From: Tepidimonas fonticaldi
Lineage (GTDB): Bacteria > Pseudomonadota > Gammaproteobacteria > Burkholderiales > Burkholderiaceae_C
Reading direction: 5' to 3'
Length of the DNA stretch: 64,000 bases
Assembly (NCBI RefSeq): GCF_007556755.1
Contig: NZ_VJOO01000009.1
Coordinates: 1-64,000 of the forward strand
Made by a program: the position numbers and the translations under genes. The stretch's first letter is position 1. Every line of letters starts with the position of its first letter. Positions 5,036-7,585 of this stretch are shown in pieces. The notes beneath the pieces were generated by a model, which saw only the letters and a program-made list of their open reading frames with translations, made no database searches and had not been told where the DNA came from.

Positions 5036-5620
5036 TCAGCGTTTGGTCAGCTTGAACACCGCGGTGCTGGCCAGCAGATTGGGCAGGGTGCGGACCTCGC
5101 GTCCGTTCTCCAGCCCAAACGCATCTTCGATGTGCAGGCCCAGGCGCTGCGCCAGCACCTCGAAGTCCGCGAACGTGCCGACGCGGATGTTGGGCGTGTC
5201 GTACCACTGGTACGGCAGCCGCTTGGTCACCGGCATGCGCCCGGCCAGCACGCGCAGGCGATTCGGCCAGTGCGCGAAGTTGGGGAAGGCGACGATGGCG
5301 CTGCGGCCCACGCGCGCGGTCTCGCGCAGCATCGTCTCGGCGTTGCGCAGGTGCGGCAGCGTGTCGATCTGCAACACGACGTCGAAGCTGCCATCGGCGA
5401 ACATCGACAACCCTTCCTCGAGGTTGAACTGCAGCACGTCCAGCCCGCGCTTCAAGCACGCGAGCACCTGCGCGTCGTCCAGCTCGATGCCGTAGCCGTG
5501 GCAGCCGCGCGCCTCGCGCAGGTGCGCCAGCAGCGCGCCGTCGCCGCAGCCGAGGTCGAGCACGCGCGCGCCGTGCGGCACCAGGCCCGCGATGAGTTGC
5601 TGGATCTGGCGGTCGCTCAT
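5036..5620 (-). CDS. metW: MetW, methionine-biosynthesis methyltransferase-like protein
   Basis: A 194-residue MetW protein with an S-adenosylmethionine-binding fold: motif [16 protein letters not shown] (about residues 20-34), then [11 protein letters not shown] and [10 protein letters not shown], typical of the family. MetW partners MetX, and in Proteobacteria the pair acylates homoserine; MetW is thought to be required for or to stimulate MetX activity, though its own reaction is unsettled. The ATG at 5620 overlaps the metX stop by 4 bp (ATGA), so translation is coupled. Confidence 0.95.
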
Positions 5621-6822
5621 GCGGCACCTCCGGTGGTGGGCGGCTGCAGACCGGCGCCGACGCGGTGCTCGAAGTAGGCGCGCACGGCGGCGTGGTAGCG
5701 CGCGTCGTCGAGCAGGAAGGCGTCGTGCCCGTGCGGCGCGTCGATCTCGGCGTAGCTGACGGCGCGGCGGTTGTCCAGCAGCGCCTTGACGATCTCGCGG
5801 CTGCGCGCCGGCGCGAAGCGCCAGTCGGTGCTGAAGGACACGAGCAGGAAGTCGGCCTGCGCGCGTGCCAGCGCCGCCGACAGGTCTCCGTCGAACTCGC
5901 GCGCCGGGTCGAAGTAGTCCAGCGCGCGCGTGATCAGCAGGTAGGTGTTGGCGTCGAAGTACTCGCTGAACTTGTCGCCCTGGTGGCGCAGGTAGCTCTC
6001 GATCTCGAACTCGATGTCCTGCGTCGTGTAGCGGTAGGTCAGCCGCTCGGCGGCCTCCGCGTCGCCGGCGCGCAGCGCCTGCGCGAGCGGGCGCAGGCGG
6101 CGGCCGAACTTCTCGTTCATCACGTCGTCGCTCAGGTAGGTGATGTGGCCGATCATGCGCGCGATGCGCAGCCCCCGGCGCGGCTTGGTGCCGTGGCGCA
6201 GGTAGTGCCCGCCGTGGAAGTCCGGGTCGCTGACGATGGCGCGGCGCGCCACCTCGTTGAAGGCGATGTTTTCCGCCGTCAGGTTGGGGGCGCTGGCGAT
6301 GACGACCGCGTGGCGTACACGCTGCGGATACTGCAGCGTCCAGCTCAGCGCCTGCATGCCGCCCAGGCTGCCGCCCATCACGGCGGCCAGCCGCTCGATG
6401 CCGAGCGCGTCCAGCAGCCGCGCCTGCGCCTCGACCCAGTCCTCCACCGTTACGACGGGGAAGTCCGCGCCCCACGGCTGGCCGGTGGCGGGGTTGACGT
6501 GCGTCGGCCCGGTGGAGCCGAAGCACGAGCCGACGTTGTTGACGCCGATGACGAAGAAGCGGCGCGTGTCCACCGGCTTGCCGGGGCCGATCATGTTGTG
6601 CCACCAGCCCTCGCTCTTGGGGATGGGCTGCCCACGTTCGTCGGCGTGCAGGCCGGCGACGTGGTGGCTGGCGTTGAGCGCGTGGCAGATCAGCACCGCG
6701 TTGTCGCGCGCGGCGTTGAGCTGGCCGTAGGTCTCGTAGACCAGCTCGAAGGCAGGCAGCACACCGCCCCCGCGCAAGGGCAGGGGTGTGTCGAAGGCAT
6801 GACGCTGAGGAGTGACGATCAC
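5617..6822 (-). CDS. metX: Homoserine O-acyltransferase MetX (MetXS-like)
   Basis: Alpha/beta-hydrolase acyltransferase of 401 residues that activates homoserine for methionine synthesis. The nucleophile Ser is S152 in GGSLGGMQ; the C-terminal Asp and His of the triad are in STDWRF and HGHDAFLLD. In bacteria with MetW the enzyme usually uses succinyl-CoA; acetyl-CoA remains possible. The only usable start in frame after the upstream TAA is the GTG at 6822, giving MIVTPQ, which matches the normal N-terminus; AGGA lies 8 nt upstream. Expression is controlled by the SAM-II riboswitch at 6886-6939, and a 20-codon ORF overlaps the start (GTGA). metW overlaps the 3' end. Confidence 0.95.
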
Positions 6823-6881
6823 GGTATCGATCCTGTAGCCGCGCCGTGATCGAGGGCTTGCCGGACTTGGCCGATGGCCAC
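6819..6881 (-). CDS. 20-codon leader ORF between SAM-II riboswitch and metX
   Basis: GTG at 6881 follows the riboswitch Shine-Dalgarno GAGGA (6890-6886) at a 4-nt spacing, and the frame stays open for 20 codons ([20 protein letters not shown]). Its TGA at 6821-6819 overlaps the metX GTG at 6822 in the sequence GTGA. This arrangement means the Shine-Dalgarno that the riboswitch would hide belongs to the leader ORF, with metX reached by translational coupling or through its own weaker AGGA. Whether the peptide matters or only its translation does cannot be told. It could also be a chance reading frame. Confidence 0.45.
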
Positions 6882-6885
6882 GTCT

Positions 6886-6939
6886 TCCTCTTTAGCGGTA
6901 TTTGTTACGCGCCCGCAAGCGGGACTCAAATCGGCGCTG
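6886..6939 (-). promoter_or_regulatory. SAM-II (SAM-alpha) riboswitch controlling metX
   Basis: Reading the minus strand from 6939, the sequence shows the SAM-II hallmarks in order: P1 5' arm GCGCC (6937-6933), the U-rich loop start GATTTGA (6932-6926), a CCC-containing loop, P1 3' arm GGCGC (6913-6909), GTAACAAATA, then GCTAAAGAGG (6896-6887). Loop bases TCC can pair with GGA of the terminal GAGGA, forming the H-type pseudoknot that in this class hides the Shine-Dalgarno when S-adenosylmethionine binds. Placement upstream of a methionine-biosynthesis acyltransferase is the classical SAM-II context. The class is best known from Alphaproteobacteria; a covariance-model search with Rfam SAM_alpha would settle it. 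Confidence 0.82.
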
Positions 6940-6945
6940 GAAGGG

Positions 6946-6951
6946 AGTATA
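6946..6951 (-). promoter_or_regulatory. metX -10 element TATACT
   Basis: TATACT on the minus strand (6951-6946) is a strong -10 match. Counting six to seven bases downstream puts the start site at about 6939, exactly the first base of the SAM-II aptamer, as expected for an aptamer at the 5' end of its mRNA. No good -35 is visible 17 bp upstream. Confidence 0.65.
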
Positions 6952-7074
6952 CAAGCGCGGCATCCCACCCATGCGGGCGCGTGGCGGCGCGGGCCAAGTG
7001 TTGTTCTGACGCATCGCTGACGCGCTTTATCGGGCCGATCGTCGAAAAAACGGGCGCATATCGCGGCGAGCGCG

Positions 7075-7080
7075 CATAAT
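7075..7080 (+). promoter_or_regulatory. Candidate -10 for the RRM protein gene
   Basis: CATAAT lies in GC-rich DNA 128 bp before the RRM start codon. If used, the mRNA has a leader of about 120 nt, rich in pyrimidines, as is common for RRM/cold-response genes. No -35 consensus is seen, so the call is tentative. Confidence 0.3.
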
Positions 7081-7207
7081 GGGCGTTGCAAGTGTCCGCG
7101 ACGCTTGCGTCTTGGTGATCGGTCGGTTTCGCGTGCTGCAGTTCTCTTGTGTGCCGTCGGGGCTCCATCGCTACCCTTTGTTTCGTGTGTTTTCAGGAGT
7201 CCCTCAG

Positions 7208-7585
7208 ATGGGCAACAAGTTGTACGTCGGCAATCTTCCGTATTCGGTGCGCGATGGCGATCTCGAGCAGGCATTCAGCGCGTTTGGCCAAGTGTCCAGC
7301 GCCAAGGTCATGATGGAGCGCGATACCGGCCGCTCCAAGGGTTTCGGTTTCGTCGAGATGGGCACCGATGCCGAGGCGCAGGCCGCCATCTCCGGCATGA
7401 ACGGCCAGTCCATGGGCGGCCGCGATCTGGTGGTTAATGAGGCGCGCCCGATGGAGGCGCGTCCCCCGCGCAGCGGTGGCTTTGGCGGCGGTCGCCGTGA
7501 TGGTGGTGGCTTCGGCGGCGGCGAGGGCCAGTTCCGCAGCCCGTATGGCACCGGCCGTCGGCGCGACGACCGCGGCGGTTATTGA
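7208..7585 (+). CDS. RRM-domain glycine-rich RNA-binding protein
   Basis: A 125-residue protein with one RNA recognition motif: RNP2 is LYVGNL (about residues 5-10) and RNP1 is KGFGFVEM (about 44-51). After residue 85 comes a Gly/Arg-rich tail with repeated GGFGGG and RRD segments. Such short RRM proteins, in Cyanobacteria and Burkholderiales, bind single-stranded RNA and are often cold-induced; a chaperone-like role is inferred. The ATG is set by CAGGAG eight bases upstream. The gene converges with lptC and its last 7 bp overlap the lptC stop region, so there is no room for a separate terminator. Confidence 0.92.
   Translation: MGNKLYVGNLPYSVRDGDLEQAFSAFGQVSSAKVMMERDTGRSKGFGFVEMGTDAEAQAAISGMNGQSMGGRDLVVNEARPMEARPPRSGGFGGGRRDGGGFGGGEGQFRSPYGTGRRRDDRGGY

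Follow-up and report, generated by a model that had tools for sequence, protein, structure and literature searches.

The SAM-II riboswitch class was published in 2005 with a Bordetella sequence in its figure, terminators in many of its members, and, as a stated feature, a promoter just a few bases upstream of P1 (Corbino; PMC1273637), and a 2007 account gives termination as its most frequent association in alpha- and beta-Proteobacteria (PMC2258182). Leyn 2014, in its account of SAM_alpha, names the Rhizobiales and Rhodobacterales only, and presents a new element from beta-proteobacteria, termed 'metXZ', with a pseudoknot and a terminator, upstream of metXW or metZ (PMC4239095). In the SAM-II leader of S. 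meliloti metA, translation is described as starting far downstream of the aptamer, as it would at the locus studied here, with a terminator between two in-frame starts and a requirement for the aptamer's Shine-Dalgarno sequence (PMC9373788). SAM-V, as described in PMC6061858, has the same H-type pseudoknot and pocket logic and is translational, but its Shine-Dalgarno sequence is contained in, or adjacent to, the short helix of the aptamer itself, and its phylogeny is different.

Here we analyzed the leader of metX in Tepidimonas fonticaldi, which lies in a 64-kb stretch of DNA, hereafter the window. In comparison to SAM-II as published (PMC1273637), the locus shares P1, the pseudoknot, the GATTTG/TTGC/GCTAAAG core, a promoter near P1 and a methionine gene downstream, but in Tepidimonas it is without a U-tract terminator and has a block that could capture the start codon. 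It differs from the S. meliloti metA leader in that a U-tract terminator was not found and metX has its own Shine-Dalgarno-like box. The SAM-II class and its promoter-in-register feature are already known; new here are the loss of the terminator together with the putative start-capture block in Tepidimonas, and an unlisted SAM-II-like element before metK, a subtype to which the window aptamer served as a pointer. We think there is a good chance that Burkholderiales carry an unlisted SAM-II subtype before metK, with GAGUUA for GAUUUG and a covarying P1, which would place SAM synthesis under SAM feedback in a group without a known methionine regulator of metK, and that the Tepidimonas metX member swapped its terminator for start-codon capture.

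The metX leader carries a SAM-II aptamer

Of 4227 Rfam families scanned against the 64-kb window, RF00521 was the sole gathering-threshold match (6947-6871 on the minus strand; score 39.5 bits, E 2e-5), exceeding its cut-off of 36 by 3.5 bits, and the 3.0-Mb genome contained no other RF00521 match at E<=0.001. Long-loop SAM-II (RF01726) was ruled out, with 14.6 bits against a cut-off of 44. The initial annotation, made from the sequence alone, had described a metX transcript that begins with a SAM-II riboswitch and had proposed an Infernal search with RF00521 as a check. The aptamer passed that family threshold, the class assignment was upheld by this match and by covariation in P1, and each sequence element named at that stage, from TATACT through P1, GATTTGA, GTAACAAATA and GCTAAAGAGGA to the loop TCC and GGA, was located on the minus strand (Table 1).

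Table 1. Positions of features in the metX leader and its genes (window coordinates), and of the metK-linked element elsewhere in the genome
Feature	Position	Strand	Remarks
-10 box TATACT	6946..6951	-	predicted transcription start ~6939; register conserved in relatives
SAM-II (SAM_alpha) aptamer, RF00521 match	6871..6947	-	39.5 bits; family model R1 70.4 bits, own sequence included in the R1 training set
P1 hairpin	6909..6937	-	GCGCC 6937-6933 with GGCGC 6913-6909; covariation, 62 sequences
GATTTGA	6932-6926	-	read on minus strand
P2 pseudoknot	6886..6924	-	TTGC 6918-6915 : GC(T)AA 6896-6892; TCC 6924-6922 : GGA 6888-6886
GTAACAAATA	6908-6899	-	read on minus strand
GCTAAAGAGGA	6896-6886	-	read on minus strand
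20-codon GTG upstream ORF	6819..6881	-	TGA overlaps metX GTG; overlap in 2/11 Tepidimonas, not conserved
Anti-aptamer block CCGGCAAGCCCTCGATCACGGCGC	6841..6864	-	CGGCGC 6846-6841 : P1 5′ strand; GCAAGC : GCTTGC 6920-6915
Putative anti-start strand CGATCACGG	6844..6852	-	9-nt perfect inverted repeat with 6824-6816
Shine-Dalgarno-like AGGA belonging to metX	6831..6834	-	by eye; AGGA-like box in 11 Tepidimonas leaders
metX start region CCGTGATCG, partner of the putative anti-start strand	6816..6824	-	perfect repeat with 6852-6844
metX, homoserine O-acyltransferase	5617..6822	-	NF047916, 638.8 bits, cut-off 560
metW, overlapping metX end	5036..5620	-	TIGR02081, 227.6 bits, cut-off 189.5
metK-linked SAM-II-like element (outside the window)	L231 1569-1511 (G000 contig C33)	-	metK ATG 73 nt after first GCTAAAG base

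Across 62 family aptamers, 98.1% of P1 cells were paired, with 16 double-change cells versus 3.1 in shuffles; the number of pair types was not above that of shuffles (48/500 reached it), and the outermost pair formed as A-U, C-G, U-G, G-C and U-A. The P2 pseudoknot has the bulged U and A-rich strand (GCUAAAG) of the class. Its UUGC:GC(U)AA helix was invariant in 62/62 aptamers and is thus silent on covariation, while the TCC:GGA side was paired in 71% of cells and double changes were absent. The element was present in all 11 Tepidimonas genomes, in six of them over the Rfam cut-off. Judged by its sequence, the window element is a true, ordinary SAM-II member in an interesting setting. Weak additional RF00521 or R1 matches were also seen in Tepidimonas and in the same genome (L200, L201, L232, L233).

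The gene context likewise held, the aptamer being positioned directly upstream of metX, identified by its NF047916 score, and of metW, which places it before methionine/SAM genes; the closest named MetX, from T. thermarum, was 91% identical. A further proposal, that the loop TCC could pair with a Shine-Dalgarno GGA, survived in part. The two motifs do stand opposite each other in P2, but the GGA is some 64 nt upstream of the metX start codon (GTG at 6822), and the loop cannot be taken to hide the metX Shine-Dalgarno sequence because metX has its own AGGA-like box near the GTG. By eye, such a box was found 6-10 nt before the GTG in the 11 Tepidimonas leaders, as a degenerate GGAA in one (L199).

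Of 117 aptamers, 116 had a -10-like box at a distance of 4-20 nt upstream of P1, versus 0-10/117 in nine upstream control windows. A pattern scan of 6600-7300 returned no sigma-70-like box pair, and the -35 hexamer rose slightly at most across the family, with a mean of 1.50/6 matches at offset -39, where most other offsets had ~1.1-1.4 but -30 had 1.59; a -35 box was therefore dropped. The predicted transcription start, which coincides with P1 or falls a few bases from it, is supported by comparison with relatives, on which it rests because the -10 box is conserved in register and there is no clear -35. The register itself had been put forward as worth recording, and here the class description (PMC1273637) takes precedence.

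SAM-II is widespread in the family and order

The expectation that a clear SAM-II case would be unusual in a Burkholderiales-type genome was not borne out. RF00521 matched 142/250 family genomes at E<=0.001 and 60/250 over the Rfam cut-off. The family-built model R1, which derives from 62 of 110 fetched family aptamers so that training genomes match by construction, matched 220/250 family genomes at E<=1e-5 and 213/300 genomes of the order at E<=0.001, these counts being matches by score, a minority of which were inspected singly. Many SAM-II members in the family fall below the 36-bit Rfam cut-off (60 vs 142 vs 220 of 250). In the T. fonticaldi genome, R1 noise began at E 0.02, well separated from two strong matches. 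Among named metX loci, 78/80 matched R1 (in 12 cases with the core alone), including those of Hydrogenophaga, Variovorax, Malikia, Polaromonas and Tepidicella. SAM-II is thus ordinary here, and occurrence outside the Alphaproteobacteria was on record already, both in the 2005 class figure with its beta-proteobacterium (PMC1273637) and in the 2007 account (PMC2258182).

These loci also bear on 'metXZ', which is described in PMC4239095 as new and apart from SAM_alpha. As described there, it resembles SAM-II of the family in lying upstream of metXW or metZ, in occurring once per genome, in its pseudoknot and terminator, and in taxa, being present in 10/11 Comamonadaceae; further, the letter M (A/C) in its legend would fit column 31 of A2, which is A or C in 62/62. 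The fit of gene, position, copy number and taxa, with one ambiguous legend letter, suggests that 'metXZ' and SAM-II are one RNA, a comparison made at the level of their descriptions. If true, an orphan element would find its class.

Terminator loss and a putative start-codon capture platform in Tepidimonas

A hairpin with a U tract followed the aptamer in 85/106 family loci and 68/77 named loci (153/183 relative loci). The two sets overlap, and with distinct leaders counted once an intrinsic terminator was present in 143 of 171 relatives versus 0/11 Tepidimonas, by script criteria strict enough that Tepidicella xavieri was scored a miss despite a hairpin and T run clear to the eye; the hairpin of Tepidicella baoligensis appeared weaker. 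The script search between aptamer and metX yielded no hairpin with a U tract in any of the 11 Tepidimonas, nor did a pattern scan of 6600-7300 yield a terminator-like site. The transcriptional platform usual in the family, an intrinsic terminator before metX, was therefore not found in this genus, and the comparison indicates that the Tepidimonas expression platform is genus-specific and probably translational.

In its place, the Tepidimonas leaders have a block complementary to two partners. Its CGGCGC paired with the P1 5′ strand in 66/66 cells across the 11 Tepidimonas, and the helix joining its GCAAGC side to GCTTGCGG of the aptamer was complete in 6/11. The pairing of CGATCACGG with CCGTGATCG over the metX GTG was retained in 98/99 cells. 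Nine of the 12 CGATCACGGCGC columns were invariant in the genus, with just 3 further invariant columns in the stretch from GAGGA to the start side. At least 9 contiguous pairs with the start codon (G-U allowed) were found in 10/11 Tepidimonas vs 10/172 relatives (8/164 distinct), and the longest such pairing averaged 9.0 in Tepidimonas vs 5.6 shuffled; the best contiguous start pairing in one leader (L191) was 6. The anti-P1 and anti-start pairings share CGG and so exclude each other.

From the aptamer, its in-register promoter, the lost terminator and this doubly complementary block, each established by sequence comparison, we propose that the SAM-II riboswitch heading the metXW mRNA is a translational OFF switch acting by start-codon capture, through which high S-adenosylmethionine would lower metX; on balance we judge this reading the probable one. 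When SAM is absent, the aptamer 5′ half would pair with the block, leaving the start codon reachable. When SAM is present, the aptamer (P1 and pseudoknot) would fold first during transcription and free the block, whose strand CGATCACGG could then close over the metX GTG by pairing with CCGTGATCG, blocking translation. The switch would thereby have moved from transcription termination, as in sister genera, to start-codon capture. If true, one aptamer family has changed its output within a single genus, providing a natural test of expression-platform evolution.

Folding models gave mixed evidence for start-codon capture. In the minimum free energy structures, the P1 5′ strand was paired with the block in 8/11 Tepidimonas leaders, including that of the window, the anti-start helix was already present in 2/11, and neither helix in 1. 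With the aptamer forced, the accessibility of the window's start codon fell from 0.32 to 0.00; 8/11 Tepidimonas in all showed a decrease and 3/11 an increase. In the unforced fold, the start was free with a probability <0.5 in 9/11. Against shuffled platforms, the aptamer-block duplex reached p<=0.05 in only 4/11 (window 0.074) and the start duplex in only 5/11 (window 0.051). No compensatory changes were found in the anti-start helix among the Tepidimonas leaders, the changes being one-sided and equaled by shuffles; the 3′ side of this helix is coding and invariant. The aptamer-block helices had a single double-change pair and did not outperform shuffles.

A serious though unlikely alternative is a distant Shine-Dalgarno (standby) arrangement, in which GAGGA in the aptamer would serve as the loading site for ribosomes that initiate at a downstream codon, with SAM hiding GAGGA in the pseudoknot. 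The S. meliloti metA SAM-II leader is reported to work in this manner, with its start 74 nt downstream (PMC9373788), and, counted from the first GCTAAAG base, the metX GTG in the window also lies 74 nt downstream, a distance measured from a different base than that of S. meliloti. GAGG is kept in 11/11 Tepidimonas, but GAGG or CAGG was also seen by eye in many terminator-bearing relatives among the matches listed, so its retention may serve only the aptamer. Moreover, metX has an AGGA-like box of its own, and standby loading leaves the conserved anti-start block unexplained. Under translational coupling, the riboswitch would hide the start of a 20-codon ORF (GTG 6881) with its stop over the metX start, and translation of this ORF would open the anti-start hairpin. 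GAGGA does lie just before this GTG, and a GTGA overlap occurs in the window and in one other leader (L008), which made coupling attractive on the window alone. It was dropped, and we hold it to be very doubtful, given that the stop-start overlap is missing in 9/11 Tepidimonas and that the GTG frame runs beyond the metX start in two leaders (L193 and L194).

Regulated transcription termination at a non-canonical or Rho-dependent site would keep Tepidimonas in line with its relatives, among which termination is the usual mode, and with the linkage reported as commonest for SAM-II in alpha- and beta-Proteobacteria (PMC2258182). We consider it improbable in view of the searches above, which found a hairpin with a U tract in 0/11 Tepidimonas and no terminator-like site across 6600-7300. 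That the RF00521 match arose by chance or is vestigial, without regulation, might be entertained for a score just 3.5 bits over the cut-off, but the element's presence in all 11 species, its covarying P1, its promoter in register and the metX downstream make this extremely improbable.

An unlisted SAM-II-like element upstream of metK

The second strong R1 match in the T. fonticaldi genome (43.1 bits, E 4e-10) lies outside the window, before metK. The element was found before metK in all 11 Tepidimonas, with 57/59 core positions invariant. By score it does not belong to RF00521, since Rfam gave no match at E<=1 in any of 12 metK loci scanned, namely the T. fonticaldi locus and 11 from other genomes. 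It is SAM-II-like, however, in its P1/P2 topology, its covariation and its SAM-contact bases, the contacts being mapped by eye onto SAM-V.

Model R2, built from the 11 Tepidimonas metK elements, matched 171/300 genomes of the order at E<=1e-4, a count that includes metX- and metZ-type cousins. We inspected 70 R2-match loci, comprising the best 30 and 40 picked to avoid metX-type places and thus not a random sample, of which 38 were before metK, 2 before metX and 30 before other genes. The 38 metK-type loci span 10 families of the order, and one metK-upstream copy was found in another order of the class (L324). GCTAAA was 63-105 nt before the metK start in the 36 distinct leaders, and a -10-like box preceded the element in 42/48 cases, vs 0-6/48 in controls.

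Covariation was evaluated in 33 of 34 distinct sequences, the one with a long insert (L311) being left out. Pairing in P1 and P2 extended to 93.2% of cells, and double-change pairs numbered 8 vs 3.9 shuffled (0/500), for example C-G 16 / U-A 16 in P1 and G-C 23 / A-U 8 in P2; pair types were no more numerous than in shuffles (453/500), and the outermost P1 pair held in only half. The GAUUUG of the metX type was replaced by GAGUUA in 26/33 metK-type sequences and by GAUUUA in 3, while UUGC and GCUAAAG were unchanged in 33/33. P2 was longer in Tepidimonas.

Mapped by eye onto the SAM-V contacts given in PMC6061858, all bases touching the SAM adenine, sulfonium and amino acid were kept, the sole change in the contact area being the weak partner of the adenine-binding U. 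Because the contact bases are kept, SAM is likely the ligand of the metK element. By the same mapping, a pocket-adjacent base (U8 of SAM-V) was G in 30/33 sequences, a change that makes altered affinity, or even an altered ligand, conceivable. Downstream of the aptamer, the best complement covered a Shine-Dalgarno-like motif in 21/36 distinct leaders (mean 6.4 vs 5.0 shuffled; p<=0.05 in 10/36), which is suggestive only of an anti-Shine-Dalgarno stretch.

Additional SAM-II-like loci

Several other arrangements were observed. In Burkholderiales and other orders of the class, SAM-II followed by a GC-rich hairpin and T run (by eye) occurred before sulfhydrylase-like frames (metZ/metY; L271, L260, L263, L310, L325-L328, L330-L336, L339, L341), and the two such proteins scanned (L271, L263) were PF01053. 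Tandem SAM-II-like elements ~100-160 nt apart were present at L248, L282, L283, L293, L305, L314-L317, L319 and L329, some preceding genes unlike methionine metabolism, and the 10 SAM-II-like matches of a single genome (G792) formed five tandem pairs. SAM-II-like elements, mostly with GAUUUAA or GAGUUAA, were also located upstream of a ~100-aa protein beginning MYDC or MFDC (L275, L281, L300, L308, L309, L288, L292, L305), for which two scanned representatives had no Pfam match; a MATE-like frame was next in L281, L300 and L309, that of L281 being PF01554 when scanned.

Finally, RF02424 (Bp2_287, 'Burkholderia sRNA') matched the strand opposite SAM-II leaders, at 29.8-35.0 bits vs a cut-off of 70 (L314 1487-1356, minus strand; L315 1574-1696, L325 1457-1593 and L316 1581-1689, plus strand). 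When reverse-complemented, its consensus reads by eye as GATTTGAT...CAGCTTGCGG...CAGCTAAA together with a terminator-like hairpin, and this reading suggests that RF02424 may be a SAM-II leader on the wrong strand.
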